This document shows, piece after piece, positions 13,976 through 61,067 of a DNA stretch of 64,000 nucleotides. The translations under genes and the position numbers were made by a program. Origin of the DNA: Physcia stellaris (taxonomy: Eukaryota > Ascomycota > Lecanoromycetes > Caliciales > Physciaceae); NCBI GenBank assembly GCA_018902385.1, contig JABSSW010000043.1:124001-188000 (forward strand). Direction: 5' to 3'. The stretch's first letter is position 1. Each line of letters starts with the position of its first letter. Under the pieces are notes generated by a model. It saw only the letters and a list, made by a program, of their open reading frames with translations. It ran no database searches and was not told the DNA's origin.

Positions 13976-14755
13976 ACGTAGAGTCGATAGTCTGGGGGGG
14001 ATAGGTCTGTATTAAGCTGCAGTGGTACCAGATATATGGTCCTACCTTACTCGCCTGTAAGGGTTCTTCGAAGAATGACTCGAAGGGTTTGGTGTAGGCC
14101 GTCACTTTCCAGCCCGGGTTGATGATGATGGCCAATTAGCGCCTTGGCGCGCTTCTCTCTGTAAAAAGGGGAGGGGATTCGACGACTCTGACACGAGTAT
14201 AACACAGGGAGACGGTAGGGACTTGAGTGTCACGCAAGATGTCAAAATGGCGTTATCGTGCCATCACTTCAACAAAACAGGCTGCCTTCACTTCATTGGG
14301 TATATATGTGTTCACATTCAAAAACAACTTGACACTTTTCATCCGTCTCTACAGAGTATCCCATGCTCTGGCGTGGTGCTAATTTTGCCTCTCTTGCATC
14401 ACCATTTACACGCTCAATGCAACAAGATGTGTACCAATCTTTGGTTCAAAATCGGTGGAATATAAGATGAAGAAGACATCATCTTCAGCTTCCGTCCCAA
14501 GTCGGGTAATCGCAGGTCTGTTAAAAATATCATAAGAAAGATGTGTTACAAGAAATTAGCACCACTTACTACCACACCACGGAATTACATTTTCATTGAT
14601 ATGCAAAGCAACTCGCAGATACCACAGGGCGAGGCCATTCTCCTCAACGCATAGCAATTCCTTGTAGAAAAATGCTTGCAACCAGGCGAGCTAGGCCAGA
14701 TCTCACTTCGATCATGCGCTTGGTCGGAATGACTTACATACAGCGCGCCAGGATA
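13976..14755. other. intergenic, promoter side of the disordered-protein gene
   Basis: 780 bp between the NOP53 stop and the next minus-strand start. It should contain the NOP53 3' UTR and the promoter and leader of the downstream gene. No coding signal or repeat seen. Confidence 0.4.
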
Positions 14756-22274: not shown

Positions 22275-23038
22275 GGTTGGAATTTTGGAGTTGGATTAAG
22301 AGGAGTGCCTCCGAATACTGTACGTACTTACTAGTATGATACCACTCGCCCCTGGCAAAATTGAGTGCGGATTTCATTCCACGTACCCGTGCAACCCTAA
22401 CCCTGCTGACAGGATTAATGGTGCGGATCTCCGTAATCAACAATTATTCACCGCAAACGGAATCAATCAACGACAGTCCGAATTGGAAATTTCGGCAAAT
22501 TTAAAACTTCAGTCAGATCGATTCACGTTCTGACTTCCAAAGACGGGTAACCTTGATCTGACAAGTTGTTCCTATTTTCTATCCGCACTCAATTCTGTCC
22601 GGGGCGAGTGTACTCGTACCTACGTACATACAATCAATCATTTTCGTTAAAATTCTTTCAATCAAAAAAATAAAATAATTGTGTAGAACTAGATCAAAAG
22701 AACGGCGCTACGCCAGATTGCCAATAATAGATAACACTCTTCAAGATCCGAAAGCCTTTCGCCAACAAACTCACGGCCAACCGCCTCATAGGACTCATGC
22801 CTTTCAGAAGTCTTATGCGGCGGTTCTTATGTGTTTAAGAGGATTCGGCAAGCGCCGTACATACGTATTTACAGGACATAATGTAGAAACCGAGTATGTA
22901 CATCAAGCTAGTCATGTACAATGCAGCTAACTTTTCAATAATGACGCAAATTCTAAGATCCTTCTCCGTACTCTAGATGCAAAAGAGTGCACCTTCGTAA
23001 AGACCGTTTCGGTCATGTTGTCCGTGTGAGAACCCTGT
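22275..23038. other. intergenic, GILT promoter side
   Basis: 764 bp between the MET5 stop and the GILT-like start, both minus strand. Fairly AT-rich near 22640-22680. No gene recognised. Confidence 0.4.
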
Positions 23039-30463: not shown

Positions 30464-30869
30464 GACTTTCCCAACGACTCATCTGAGTCATGATGGTCGA
30501 AACCGTTAGTGTATGAGCATCCGCCAACGACGACCCTCTCCACTAAGGAAGTTTCGAGATAATAACAGGGAGATATCGTTGCGAAAGCTTAAGGTCTAAA
30601 GGGTACCGAATGATACAGATCAGCTCAGTACTTTACATAGCCCCGGGAAGACTTTGCTATGCCCGGCTTTGGCACACTTCCGATCGTCACTGTCCGTCCT
30701 CATGAGTCGATAGTTCCGAGTGACAGCGGTACGGCGACTTGGACCAAGCGATTCTGGCGTCCCGGTAAGATGTCGACGAAGTTGCGTTTGACAGCCTCCG
30801 TGAGGAACAGTCAACCATAGCTGTTTCCGACTCCACAACAATGGTATCAGAAGAGGTCAGTTGTATAAC

Positions 30870-30929
30870 TAACCGAGGCCCGCCTCCCAATAACCGAGGT
30901 ACGAGTGTTTGGGAGGCGGGCCCCGGTTA
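30870..30929. repeat. 21-bp inverted repeat, GC-rich hairpin
   Basis: The left arm 30870-30890 and right arm 30909-30929 are complementary at 20 of 21 positions. An 18-nt spacer separates them. The spacer begins with a repeat of the arm end (TAACCGAGG occurs at 30870 and 30891). It lies about 400 bp after ESF1 and about 200 bp before LIA1. It could be a transcription terminator-like hairpin, a tiny mobile-element relic or a regulatory structure; the sequence alone does not decide. Confidence 0.8.
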
Positions 30930-38961: not shown

Positions 38962-40679
38962 GTGATTTTGACTCTGGATCTATTCCATCGGACGACCTCG
39001 GGGCTGACCCAGGGTGGCATGCAAAACATGGGATTTTGGGAGCATCGAAGAGGCATATGGGAGGTCATCTTTGCTTATTTTGCTAGACATACTTTGGGAT
39101 TTGAGCGGGCATAGATAGAAAAGGAAAGGAACAGGCGATTACGATGGATGATACCCCACTTGCTTTACGGACGCTGCTTCTTAGCATAGAGAGCTCGGAA
39201 GTGCAGGCGACAGAAGAATAACGCAACTTTGACAACAGCGTTGCCCTTCACTTCGGTCCCACCTGTACCCTTTTTCACATGAATCAATCACCACCGTCTT
39301 CCAAGATGCGGGGAGAATTCGACAGGCTGACAGAAAGGAGGGTCGACAGCGGCTAAGAGTGATTGGAACGAATGCGCCCGCCGCGCCTCCTCTTTCCTGA
39401 CCGCGTGTCATTCGCCTCTTATTTACCTGCATTACCTCCACTCGTATTTTAGGACGGTTTTTTTTTCTTTCAATATTAATGGGCAATTCTTGTAAGATGG
39501 TGCAATCGCCAGGTGGATGACGAGTGTGCACGCACATTCGAGGATGATGGCTGCTCTGTGACGTGGAAGACTGGGAGATGCAGCCTCGAGGCTAGGCCTG
39601 GTTGGGTCGGAGACTTCTTTGTTCGGGTGAGTCGATTGGCTTTGACCTGCGCAATCCTTCTCTGCTCCCTACCGCAATCGCCTAACCATTCATCTTGACG
39701 GGCAACTTCTTGCGAGCCCTTAGCCTTCTCCCCTGGGCCCTGGATGGGCGGGTAAGGTGGGTAAGGTGTGCACGCCGATGCAGGTACTCGTACTAGGGCG
39801 CTTTCTTCCACACCATCAGGATTGACTACTGACCACCGCCAGCGCATTATTCGATTGATTGATGCGCATGTTTGGGGAAAACATCCTGACACACAAGAAA
39901 CAACTACCTACAACCTCCTCAGCCACTCGAGTAAAACCACGCGCCTCGACATCCAGCAGCTTCCGGGGGCCGCTGTATGCCGCCGGTCAATGCGACTCGG
40001 AACTGGTATGGTGGTTTGGATCGATGGGTCCGCGGTAAAGCTTAATGCCACGAGGAGGCGTCCGTCTAAACCCAAGTCGCCGTTGGCGTTCCAGTACAAT
40101 GCCCAGGGCGCTGGTGGAGTCTGCTCGGCAGATGGGATAGGTGGGATGTTTCATTGTGCTCATTGTCCTGCCTTGTTCTCGCAGTGTTTTGTTTCCCACA
40201 CGCTCTATTGTTGCTTGGCGTCCAATAGAGTGTGGCTTTTGCCCGTCAAGGCTTCCGTCTAGACTCTCGCAGTCGTGGCCCACTTCTCCTGCAGGCTTAC
40301 TATATAGATCCTGCATGGCCCCCTCTCCTTGTTCTTTTTAACATTTCCAACATCAACTCATACCCTCATTTTTTGCCTTTTTGCTCTCCTTCTTTCCTTC
40401 CCAAAGTCTTGGTGACTAGCTCACCCAACAATCCTTTCCGAAAGAATTGACTCCATACCTCTGCGAGGTCTTTGTCGATTCCCAAACCGTCTATATAAGG
40501 CTATCCGTGCCTGAACCACCACAATCCAGTCAACCAGTAGTCAATCATTTGCTACAAAGCTTTTCCCTTCATTTAAAAGCTATCCTCATCCTGACTTTTC
40601 CTGTCACTACTTTCCAACCGCTGAACAGTTATATATTTTCTGAAAGCCGTATCACTCTAGACGGGGCGGAACTTGCACC
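38962..40679. other. 1.7-kb region with the promoter of the secreted-protein gene
   Basis: Probably the SCC2 3' UTR followed by a long regulatory region. From about 40320 to the ATG at 40680 the plus strand is pyrimidine-rich. It has TATATAAG at 40492-40499 and TATATAG near 40301. The short frames here look incidental. Confidence 0.5.
40492..40499 (+). promoter_or_regulatory. TATA box of the secreted-protein gene
   Basis: TATATAAG 188 bp before the ATG. It is followed by a CA- and CT-rich leader and preceded by a CT-rich tract, an architecture common in strongly expressed filamentous-fungal genes. Confidence 0.5.
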
Positions 40680-47573: not shown

Positions 47574-49935
47574 ATGGTCACTCAATGTCGGTCTGTCCTG
47601 GCTCTGCTACGAGCTCCCGCAACCACCTCATTGCGGCCGCAGCCATTGTACCGCGGTAGACATGCCTTTGCACCAAAGGCCACTTTGTGTGTGCCATCTT
47701 TACGACCGTTGCGCAATCATAGCTTGCCATATCCTATATCATCAAGCCGACTCGTCCCAACATTAAATCGTATTCCTACATGTTCATCACGCTCGATCTC
47801 AACAAAACCGCTTCCCGTCCAGCGCGGCCCTGCATTTCGATTCTTCTATCGCTTATTCGCCTACTCAGGGGGCTTCATACTCGTGGTGGGAGGCCTTGTG
47901 GTAGCTTTCTTCATTTATGATGCTACGACATACCGGGAAGACCTTACATACACCGACATACCTGTTTCCACTGAAGCGCTGTACCCACGGAGGGGCGGAC
48001 CCAAAAACTTACCCATTGCCGATGTCTTAGTCGACGACGATGACTCCGAGGAAAATACCAGGCAGAAGCACAAACCCAAGCTGGTTGTGCTCGGCAGTGG
48101 ATGGGGTAGCGTTGCTCTGCTTAAGCTATTGAATCCGGAACAGTATCACGTCACAGTCGTATCCCCTGTCAACTACTTTCTCTTCACGCCAATGCTGCCT
48201 TCTGCGACTGTTGGAACGCTCGAGCTTAGGTCCTTGGTAGAACCCATTAGGCGCATTGTACAGCGCGTCAAAGGACATTTTCTGAGGGCTGAGGCTGTGG
48301 AGGTTGAGCTTGCGGAAAGGCTTCTCGAGGTCTGTCAAACAGATGCCAAGGGAGAGAAGAAGCATTTCTATCTACCATACGACAAGCTCGTCGTAGGCGT
48401 CGGTACGAGTGATTTTTCAAGAATTGTAAGACAGAAGCTAAGTTTATCCTAGGCTCTACCTCAAACCCGCACGGTGTGAAAGGGCTCGAGAATTGTCACT
48501 TTCTGAAAACGGTGGAAGATGCCCGGGGCATCAGAAATGCAATTCTCCAGAACTTGGAAGCCGCTTGTCTACCAACTACCTCGGACGAGGAACGCCGACG
48601 CCTCTTATCTTTCGTAGTCAGTGGCGGTGGGCCCACTGGTGTAGAGTTCGCCGCCGAATTATTTGATCTCCTGAACGAAGATCTGGGACGATCCTTCCCA
48701 AAGATCCTTAGAAACGAGGTTTCGGTGCATGTTATTCAAAGCCGTGGCCACATTCTCAATACCTACGATGAAGCCTTATCTAAGTATGCTGAAGCGAAAT
48801 TTGCTCATGATCAGGTTGAAGTTCTCACGAACTCTCGTGTCAAGGAAGTACTCCCAGACAAGATCCTCTTCTCGCAGAAAGACGAGAAGGGAGAGACCGT
48901 CACCAAAGAACTCCCGCACAATTTCTGTCTATGGTCCACGGGTGTCTGTAAGTTTTGTTTCTTCCACATCAATTACCCGATTACTCGACTCCTGGCACCT
49001 TTCTAACCCCGGGTTTATGACAGCACAAACCGACTTCTGCAAACGCATAGCAGACAAAATTGAAGTACAAACAAATCGACATGCCCTGGAAACCGACACG
49101 CACCTTCGTCTCAATGGAGCTCCTCTCGGATCGGTCTACTGCATTGGCGACTGTTCAACGGTGCAAAACAATGTTGCTGATCACTTGATTCAATTTCTTC
49201 GTGGTATTTCTTATGAAAAAGGTAAAGACCCCGAGACGGTCGAAATTACCTTCGCAGAGTGGCGCAACGTTGCACAGAGAGTTAAGAAGAGATTTCCTCA
49301 AGCCGCAGACCACCTCAGGAGACTGGACAAATTATTCGAGCAGTATGATAAAGACAAGAGCGGCAAGCTGGATTTTGGCGAATTGCATGAACTACTGCTC
49401 CAGATTGACTCTAAGCTTACCTCTCTCCCTGCTACTGCCCAGCGCGCGCACCAACAAGGTCAATATTTAGCTCGAAAGTTCAACAAGCTTGCGCAAGCCG
49501 CTCCCGGCATGGCCGCTAATGAGATAGACTACGGCGATATGGATGACGCAGTTTATAAGGCGTTTGAGTATCACCACATGGTATGTACTTCCGTATTTGA
49601 GTGAGATATGTCCTCCAGCCTTCGACAGCGTACATATCAAATATGTACCTTCTCCATGATGCTGTCGCTCACAAGAACAAATTAGGGCTCCCTCGCCTAT
49701 GTGGGAAACGCGGCAATCTTCGACTTCAATGGCATGAGCTTTTCGGGCGGACTCCTCGCGGTGTATTTGTGGAGGAGTATTTACTTCGCACAGAGTGTAA
49801 GCTTCAGGACCCGGGTGTTGTTGGCCATGGATTGGAGTAAGAGAGCTTTGTTCGGCAGAGGTTCGTTCAAATCCCAAGTGCTGTCTGACTCAAGAGTCAA
49901 GGCTGACGGGTCATATAGATCTGATGAACTTCTAA
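47574..49935 (+). CDS. NDE1: external alternative NADH:ubiquinone oxidoreductase with EF-hand
   Basis: Rotenone-insensitive type II NADH dehydrogenase of the inner mitochondrial membrane, feeding electrons from cytosolic NADH to ubiquinone. Exons 47574-48408, 48453-48947, 49024-49580, 49686-49860 and a 17-nt last exon 49919-49935 total 2079 nt and give 692 aa. An Arg/Ser-rich presequence precedes a transmembrane anchor (FILVVGGLVVAFFIYDATTY). Dinucleotide folds are VVLGSGWGSVALL and VVSGGGPTGVEFAAEL. An EF-hand loop (DKDKSGKLDFGE) lies in the insert, pointing to calcium control. The C-terminal anchor has MDWSKRALFGRDLMNF. Intron 4 (49581-49685) is a repeated, folded element (see findings). 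Confidence 0.95.
49581..49685 (+). repeat. NDE intron 4, copy 1 of an introner-like element
   Basis: A 105-nt GT-AG intron. It contains nested complementary arms: GTACATAT (49630-49637) with ATATGTAC (49641-49648), and CGACAGC (49623-49629) with GCTGTCG (49661-49667). GTGAG (49601-49605) can also pair with CTCAC (49668-49672). About 80 percent of its positions from the CTTCCG at 49589 onward match copy 2, counted by eye. Confidence 0.8.
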
Positions 49936-51465
49936 CTCTCCGCAGCCTATCTAGCGGTCTACTGTGCATAGCGATTTTGCACCAAAGCCATGTTATTGTT
50001 ATTGTTATTTTCTTCCGCATGGAGTGAGAATGGAGTGAAATATGCCCTCCAGCCTCGTACAATGTAGATATCAAATTTGTATCATCTCTATGACGCTATC
50101 GCTGATGAGAGCAAATACAAAATAGTGCGATTCTTTGGCAACACCCCGATGAACCTGCGATCTCCCGACTTGGGACGGAATCTGAAGATGACTTCTAACC
50201 CATGTCATGTTCATATGCTTTGTGCCAAAGGCGGTTCCCCGTCTTTTCACAACGAGTGTATAGTGGCGGTGCCCAGGAGGCAAAATCGCACCACACCAGA
50301 CCATGGGATACAAGTTTTGGTAGGGGTTGAGCGGTGAGGTGATGATTCAATATGGCCATATCTCTCCATTTACCCTCTCTTGTGCTCGTTCCTGAGGTCT
50401 ACGGATATCTGAAGCTTATCTCTAGCTTTCAGCCCCATGGGTCCAGAATCTTGCGTGTCCTGATTTCGCAAGAAAGCCTCCACGCCTTAGCGTTGTGCTT
50501 CTGGAGCGTTATTGAGGTCGCCTATGAGGTTCACGAAAAGCTGGTGCCCCGAAAGGAGAGGGGACTGGACTGGAAACTTCTTCGTTCGACAAGGCTTTTG
50601 GGGACTTCGCGAGCTTTCGTGTCTGGTTTGATTCTACAATGTGAACTGCGTCATCATCTAGGTAAAGCACCTCTTTCCGCTTCAGTATAATCTGAGTTTG
50701 CAGAAGAGACTCATTCACCCTACGTCTAGTGCTTCGATCCAAGAGCGGGTACGAGTACATGTCTTGCCACGATTAGGGCCTATACGTTGCCTCAGGGTGG
50801 AAAGTACAGGCGATGCGCCATAGCACAGCTGTACATGTCAGGCCACGGGATAAGCCGAAGTCCGTCCAATGAATCAGAGAGGAAGGTTGCTTGGTGGACA
50901 TTGCTAATTACCAACTACAGCCCCGGCGTTTGTAAATACGATCTGGACAAAACGGACGGTCACAGTAAACGAAAAAAAAAAACCCCGCGAGAATTCCACC
51001 GCTCATACAAGGCAATTCGAACCATTGAGCGTCACGCCATATCAGATATTGGTCAAAAGCAAGATGCCCGATGGTGAGCTTGGATAGCAAGTACCTAGTG
51101 AACAAGAGGTTCTTCGAGCCGGCTCATCGGCATGTGCCGGCTTTACGTGAGAATATTTACTCAACACATTGTGAGAATATCTGTCCACCGTAGCATCCGA
51201 CTTCCCGAACCAACCATTTCGCGAATTTTCCTGTATAATATTGAGCTGCATTCGTACCAGTATAACCCGACGGAGGATCTCTATCCAACCCCGCAACAGT
51301 GGCTGGTCTCTAGTCCCTCAGTATCTTCCAAGCTATGATATCTATTACAAGGTAGTAACGACACAGCAGTTTCAGTCATCAGAAAGACCATCTCGCAGAT
51401 CGAGTCGTTGTCCAGGTTGGCAAAGCAAAATCCTTCGAGAAAGTCAAAACGGATACGAAAGCGAA
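49936..51465. other. intergenic region after NDE
   Basis: 1.5 kb between NDE and the F-box-like gene. It holds the second copy of the NDE intron near its left end, a run of 11 A at about 50972, and otherwise no recognisable gene. Part of the left side is probably NDE 3' UTR. Confidence 0.45.
50011..50125 (+). repeat. diverged second copy of the NDE intron 4 sequence
   Basis: Runs from CTTCCGCATGG to AAAATAG and aligns with 49589-49685 on the same strand. Shared blocks include ATATGCCCTCCAGCCT, GATATCAAATTTGTAT and GACGCTATCGCTGA, each with a few substitutions. The copy ends in TAG like an acceptor and has GTGAG near its start. It lies after the NDE stop, outside any recognised coding exon. 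Confidence 0.8.
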
Positions 51466-59787: not shown

Positions 59788-61067
59788 TGCTCAGGGGAGG
59801 TAAGGGAGAAGAGAATGGGTTTTGGCAACCACTGCCCCACATCTAATGATGGCTTATTTGTGGGTGGAATGGATCCTTCAATGTTGGAAAACGCAAAGAT
59901 CAATTGACCTCACCCAACATCGCGTCGACTCCACACGCCACGGCAGGCACCGAAGTTCTGGCTGAGGAAGAACAATTCAGGTACGGCGGCGGAAGTGTCT
60001 ACGACGCCGAAAATAATAATGTACTTGTCACCACATGCAGGGATCATGCGAAATGCACTAAAAAACCCCTTGGTGGGGCTCAACCGCTCAAGGCAAAATG
60101 GATCGTCAAGTGAGCCGGAAGCGGCGTAACCCGGAAGCCGCCATCCCGCCGTGCCCGTCTAACCCTGACCCTTTGCATTACCCTAACTATCAACCATGAC
60201 CATTGATCATTTTTATTCAACAAGGACAGCGGTCGAGAACTCTATGTGTGTGCTCGTGTATGCGTTGGCAGGCTGACGATCAAGCACGTGCTCTTCGAGT
60301 GTAGGAAGCTGGAAGAGCTTCGATAAGGCCTATGGATCGATGAGATCCGAAAAGCGAAATGTGGGGAGTTGAGAAACTGGTGGATGTACGGGGTACTGAC
60401 CAAGCCGGCCAGTCTGAAGAAAGCGGCGAAATTAATAAAAAAAATCCGAGCTTATTGGCTATTTCAGATTTTTAAACGAAGACGACCAGGAATAAAGGTT
60501 GCGTAAGAAGTGCATTGGAATGGAGAATTTCATACAGAAAGGGAGTTAGGGGAGGCCATGAGGGTGATGGTGCTTGAAGTCGCCTGCTCGAACGGTATAA
60601 TAATACACCAAAGGGTAAATCAGTTTGTATAGAGCCAAGAATCTCCTAGAGGTGATTGGCTCGGTCAGTCTTGAGCCGCATGACAGCCATTGATCAATAT
60701 ATGTACTACAGTTGGAGTCATTGATAGATCCTCCCAGACTATTCCAGTGAGCTGCATCTCCAATAGGCACATCTTGGATGAATCATTTGTAGTAGCGTTG
60801 ATGCACTCATGTAATCAACCCCTGCACTCGTTGTTTTATACTGAAGGAATCTACCACAGATCTGATGGATCTTTGATCTGTGGTATTAGAACCTTACCCA
60901 TATGTACTCTTGGTGCTGGATGTGCCGTTGCTCGAGTCCTACTACTCCAGAGCTTTAACGAGAACCTCAATATACATGTACACAAAATTCCACGAGGAGA
61001 ATGTCCTCGCCAAGAGATCTTGACCCCCTTTTCATTTGGAAATGATTAAAAGGGCTAGCGCAGCACC
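59788..61067. other. intergenic with LINE remnant
   Basis: 1.28 kb between the methyltransferase start and the URK1 stop (both minus). Contains the retrotransposon relic below. The rest shows no gene. Confidence 0.5.
60235..60495 (+). mobile_element. 3' end relic of a LINE (Tad1-like) retrotransposon
   Basis: In the frame starting at 60273 the text reads IKHVLFECRKLEELR, a stop (TAA at 60324), then GLWIDEIRKAKCGELRNWW and SLKKAAKLIKKI. After a shift near the A8 run around 60440 it continues LIGYFRFLNEDDQE and ends with TAA at 60493-60495. This is the pattern of the C-terminus of fungal LINE reverse-transcriptase/RNase H polyproteins (a zinc-knuckle-like HVLFEC and a final FR motif). The piece is 5'-truncated and inactive. 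Confidence 0.6.

Follow-up and report, generated by a model that had tools for sequence, protein, structure and literature searches.

The third intron of a fungal gene for an external/alternative NADH dehydrogenase (NDE) is repeated once, in diverged form, in the 3' flank of the same gene. The repeat is confined to the intron, has no further copies in the genome at the sensitivity reached, and meets a left-truncated MITE-like element at its right end. These observations are tentatively read as one old, local, one-off duplication of the almost exact intron into the gene's own 3' flank, leaving a decayed relic fused to the truncated element, and this duplication was perhaps made at the DNA level by break repair. 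Copying would have run from the intron to the flank, at the site of a break. The features, numbered within the window (the whole stretch of 64,000 nucleotides that was analysed), are as follows.

47574..49935, + strand: NDE, external/alternative NADH dehydrogenase gene (type II NDH with EF-hand); complete reading frame, Pfam matches
49581..49685, + strand: copy 1, the third intron of NDE, 105 nt, GTATGT...CTCAC...TTAG; placed by frame and homology, a paralogue being uninterrupted there
50012..50116, + strand: copy 2, the diverged intron copy in the NDE 3' flank; 79% over the 84-nt block 50033-50116
50019-50029 / 50030-50040, + strand: 11-nt tandem duplication within copy 2, ATGGAGTGAGA / ATGGAGTGAAA; read from the sequence
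50116..50310, + strand: MITE-like dispersed repeat adjoining copy 2, right terminal repeat intact, left 15 nt missing; profile E 1.2e-45
14357..14585, - strand: second window copy of the MITE-like repeat, close to full length (model 2-210); profile E 1.8e-40

The NDE gene and its repeated intron

The gene model of NDE was built from reading frame and homology alone. In it, the coding sequence from 47574 to 49935 consists of five exons and four introns, ends with a stop codon at 49933-49935, and reads as one protein of 690 amino acids. The product is a mitochondrial NADH dehydrogenase of the fungus, with Pfam matches to Pyr_redox_2 (8e-36), NDH2_C (7.3e-23) and EF-hand_1 (3.6e-06); no relatives of the protein were present among 167 bacterial or archaeal pattern matches and 12 from a viral collection. 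The introns lie at 48403-48452, 48948-49023, 49581-49685 and 49861-49918 and measure 50, 76, 105 and 58 nt, the third being the longest. The repeated intron is thus the third of the four coding introns and not "intron 4", as it had been called in the original prediction; the last is 49861-49918. Once 49581-49685 is spliced, the protein reads through from FEYHHM into GSLAYVG, which identifies the segment as an intron by reading frame, and with 49861-49918 spliced out the C-terminus becomes FGRDLMNF. This resembles FGRDVSRE, the end of an NDH-2 paralogue in the same genome (L040, G000:C44:132767-132973, on C44). In its aligned part the paralogue lacks the EF-hand insertion, and at the position of the third NDE intron it is uninterrupted, reading FEYSHQGSLAYIG. 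It is only 48% identical to NDE, counting the matched part only, and its intron pattern therefore says little.

A same-strand repeat of the intron, about 80% similar and located after the stop codon, had been predicted, and this was borne out by alignment. A gap-free match pairs 49599-49682 with 50033-50116 (84 nt, 79%, same strand, 434 nt apart), and its 18 differences comprise 12 transitions and 6 transversions. With one gap allowed, the match spans CTTCCG (49588 / 50012) to CAAAT (49682 / 50116), so that copy 2 starts about 76 nt past the stop codon. The local score of the intron against 49936-51000 was 81, whereas none of 500 dinucleotide shuffles scored above 27 (the highest value), and the repeat in the 3' flank is far above chance. 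Extension leftward beyond CTTCCG was not significant (p 0.11). The similarity accordingly covers bases 8 to 102-105 of the intron and comes close to both of its boundaries; the ends left without a confident match amount to about 7 nt at the 5' side and 3 nt at the 3' side. Most of the extra length of copy 2 is due to its 11-nt tandem duplication, which appears in the alignments as a 10-column gap in copy 1.

Exon sequence does not accompany the repeat. The preceding exon has no counterpart around copy 2 (score 13, equalled in 207 of 300 shuffles), and extending the comparison further into that exon gave a score reached in 189 of 300. The later exons, compared with the sequence downstream of copy 2, scored 22, a value equalled in 58/300 shuffles; compared with the sequence beyond the MITE-like element, their score was reached in 209/300. 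For the 3' flank at 49936-50005, also compared with the sequence beyond the element, the figure was 94/500. Since neither flanking exon finds similar sequence near copy 2, the shared unit is essentially the intron, in agreement with the earlier view that the flanking exons are not duplicated.

Copy 2 and the adjoining MITE-like element

In copy 1, CTCAC is a candidate branch site and the donor is GTATGT. The bases of copy 2 in register with that donor are TTATTT, and a GT one base earlier would give GTTATT (50004), a poor donor. Toward the other end, CTGAT at 50102-50106 lies upstream of the TAG at 50125. Judged from these motifs and from the lost hairpin pairs described below, copy 2 is probably not spliced and would represent a decayed relic. 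An intron in the 3' UTR, as had been proposed for it, appears unlikely given TTATTT at the donor position and an acceptor that coincides with the transposon junction.

Folding was also compared between the copies. Copy 1 can form a hairpin with a z-score of -1.53 (11 of 200 shuffles as good), and the fold of copy 2 has a z-score of -1.05 (37 of 200). Of 23 base pairs in the copy 1 hairpin, 15 are still pairable in copy 2 and 8 are gone; none of the kept pairs has changed at both of its bases, and differences between the copies are no rarer in stems (11/50) than elsewhere (7/34). An Rfam search of 49400-50500, up to E 10, found no family over the copies, its lone match (50339-50494) being below threshold. 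A conserved RNA within the intron was rejected on the lack of an Rfam match together with the unpreserved stems.

The sequence to the right of copy 2 belongs to a dispersed family of about 210 bp with inverted ends TATCCCATGGTCTGG...CCAGACCATGGGATA. The segment 50120-50330 is widely repeated: 40 of 279 candidate places were scored, this one included, with a weakest best-match E of 4.1e-19. Thirty loci were returned, 29 of them elsewhere, and 28 were aligned after exclusion of L033, which has no recognisable left end. The aligned copies measure 193-236 nt, with TA at the start in 21 and at the end in 23 of the 28, and their pairwise identity has a median of 0.78 (range 0.67-0.95, 378 pairs). 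The family is MITE-like: its members are short, carry inverted repeats at their ends and are scattered in many copies. A profile of the 28 other copies, 210 positions long, aligns with 50116-50310 over its positions 16 to 210, which indicates that the element beside copy 2 is without its first 15 nt, although the first few positions of the match at 50116 are weak. The copies of the intron, at 79%, and those of the MITE-like family, at a median of 0.78, are both old on this comparison.

Intron similarity stops on the same base where the MITE profile begins (50116), and the last bases of copy 2, ACAAAATAG, are readable as MITE or as intron alike. Loss of the MITE end and gain of the intron copy therefore share one junction. 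The position of this junction also bears on the earlier statement that both copies finish in TAG: a TAG is present in copy 2 (50123-50125), but it lies at or inside the MITE junction, so that neither it nor the right boundary of copy 2 is independent evidence for an acceptor.

The stretch 49949-49981 was considered as a left MITE end, which would have placed copy 2 inside the element, but was rejected as being at chance level. Against the right terminal repeat of the window element it scored 13, equal to the best chance tile; against the family consensus it scored 9, under the best chance tiles; and the MITE profile gave no match at 49949-49981.

Search for further copies

Three IUPAC patterns from different blocks (23, 30 and 27 places) were scanned through the assembly of 43,974,083 bases with up to 3 mismatches each. 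Every pattern found two places, both at this locus, and the reversed-pattern control gave 0 matches. A 23-nt pattern from the MITE-like element, likewise scanned with 3 mismatches, served as positive control and found 71 places in the assembly, the one beside copy 2 included (reversed control 0), although this block is well conserved within the element and so flatters the method. By the author's estimate, the patterns would very probably have picked up a family of some 10 copies at close to 79% but would have missed a handful of copies at 70% or below. The patterns were relied on because a DNA search of the genome with each copy, as well as with copy 2 plus its left flank, returned only the query's own place and thus missed even the 79% partner. 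In an nhmmer profile scan without filters over 196,301 bases, many of them from overlapping loci of this place, the first match beyond the two copies had an E of 0.6, among the matches listed.

A longer DNA query of 20.0 kb, including NDE up to 49930, showed as repeated places only 30869-30929 and 40196-40231, and queries of 13.7 and 15.4 kb covered other parts of the window; the sensitivity of these long queries is doubtful, as their own place was absent from their matches. The stretch 30869-30929 is short, palindromic and G+C-rich and is present in 11 contigs; in 3 of them it occurs as inverted pairs spaced by some 480 nt, much like the ends of another element. A further dispersed short repeat with inverted ends occupies 22340-22613 (arms 22334-22372 / 22581-22619); 39 of 74 candidate places were scored for it genome-wide, and the window copy seems about 40-50 nt longer internally than several others. 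Another repeat, of about 435 bp, lies at 60210-60686; 24 rows from elsewhere in the genome match it, with identities of 65-88%.

Introner-like elements of Dothideomycetes were reportedly described by van der Burgt in 2012. The intron of NDE is like them in that a whole intron is repeated in the sense orientation, and unlike them in that the set consists of a single intron and a single non-coding relic, 79% alike, beside the same gene. In the available excerpt of PMC4457414, such elements number in the hundreds, as near-identical introns spread over unrelated genes; other intron duplications in Zymoseptoria tritici, including tandem ones within a gene, make up less than 1% of single gains there. 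Introner families in the accessible portion of PMC9860276 were kept if they held at least four introns with similarity near both boundaries, compared with the one intron and one non-coding copy found here. The same portion reports no terminal repeats or target duplications for ascomycete introners, and internal symmetry is described for fungal introner-like elements in an excerpt of PMC8469720. The original prediction of a candidate introner-like element gains no support from the pattern scans, since these find two places, both at this locus, compared with 71 for a similarly diverged repeat; at this sensitivity, membership in such a family is not supported.

Origin of the intron copy

In the repair reading put forward above, a break at the left end of the MITE-like element downstream of NDE would have been followed by resection, and repair would then have copied about 100 nt from the nearby intron as template, leaving filler DNA at the transposon end. 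Such a single event would both remove the 15-nt MITE end and add the intron copy. What disfavours it is that repair has no reason to stop at intron ends. When segments of 50-250 nt were drawn at random from NDE, a fraction of 0.0015 agreed at both ends with one of the four introns (tolerance 5 exonic or 10 intronic nt), and a fraction of 0.021 did so when the left end alone was counted, the right end being set by the MITE junction; this favours an intron-aware process, although the fit was computed after the fact and its right end is compromised by the MITE. By eye, no flanking microhomology or direct repeat was seen.

An intron-aware process is offered by transposition in cis, a possible if doubtful origin. 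Here the excised intron RNA would have entered, by reverse splicing, the 3' UTR of the pre-mRNA it came from, or an RNA copy would have been inserted, followed by decay and by a separate loss of the MITE end. Such transposition would account for a unit that is an intron without exon, in sense orientation and in a likely 3' UTR, with similarity from intronic base 8 to at most 3 nt from the acceptor. These limits fall within the tolerance of 5 exonic or 10 intronic nt used for introners in the accessible portion of PMC9860276. As a mechanism, intron transposition has been proposed and has indirect support, with 14 events in Mycosphaerella and Oikopleura in the available part of PMC3443670. The ends of copy 2, however, are not seamless, with GTATGT absent in register, the first 7 nt unrecognisable (p 0.11) and TAG within the MITE junction; later decay could explain some of this imprecision. 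The missing MITE end, moreover, requires a second event. Copying in the opposite direction, in which sequence of the 3' flank was inserted into an exon and the third intron was thereby born, is distinctly unlikely but keeps some probability because the C44 paralogue has no intron at that position, and the length of the third intron relative to the other three (105 vs 50, 76 and 58 nt) is in keeping with it. Against such a gain, the paralogue is little informative at 48% identity in the matched part, and no direct repeats flanking the intron were seen by eye.

The remaining two explanations have still lower probability. That the intron belongs to an introner-like family whose other members were lost or degenerated past recognition is highly improbable. 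Copy 1 is long and can fold into a hairpin, and fungal introner-like elements are said in the excerpt of PMC4457414 to become rapidly indistinguishable from regular introns and to be longer than them; but the three patterns led to two places of this locus each, the fold z-scores are only -1.53 and -1.05, and the copies fall short of the four introns asked of a family in the portion of PMC9860276 cited above. The slightest chance attaches to an ordinary tandem duplication that took in the 3' part of NDE and afterwards lost its exon copies by deletion. Two nearby copies on the same strand would fit, but exons would be expected to survive better than introns, and the later exons are unlike the sequence after copy 2 (58/300) or beyond the MITE (209/300), as is the 3' flank 49936-50005 unlike the latter (94/500).

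Intron transposition and intron gain during break repair are reviewed in the available part of PMC3443670. The case resembles the intron-copying mechanisms set out there in that one intron was copied locally, and differs from them in that copy 2 lies outside the coding sequence, is imprecise at both ends and is joined to a transposon. As for MITEs, the adjoining 195 bp are a member of the ~210-bp inverted-repeat family, whereas the intron copy has no counterpart in the 28-copy profile and is thus outside the family. Among the papers listed in a literature search that did not use the gene name, no earlier report of this case was found. New here is that the right end of copy 2 abuts a left-truncated MITE-like element.

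Copying of single introns is still debated, and the best-documented cases are introner bursts. DNA repair and reverse splicing make different predictions about the ends of a copy and about the order of events with respect to the transposon, and a solitary intron-bounded copy next to its source would therefore be useful for testing them. In its present state, this old and decayed single case carries modest weight. The copy may, although this is rather unlikely, be a fossil of RNA-mediated intron movement in cis, a spliceosomal intron that entered the 3' UTR of its parent transcript by reverse splicing and became fixed in the genome as a one-off; if true, this would mean that single, non-proliferating intron transpositions occur outside introner families.
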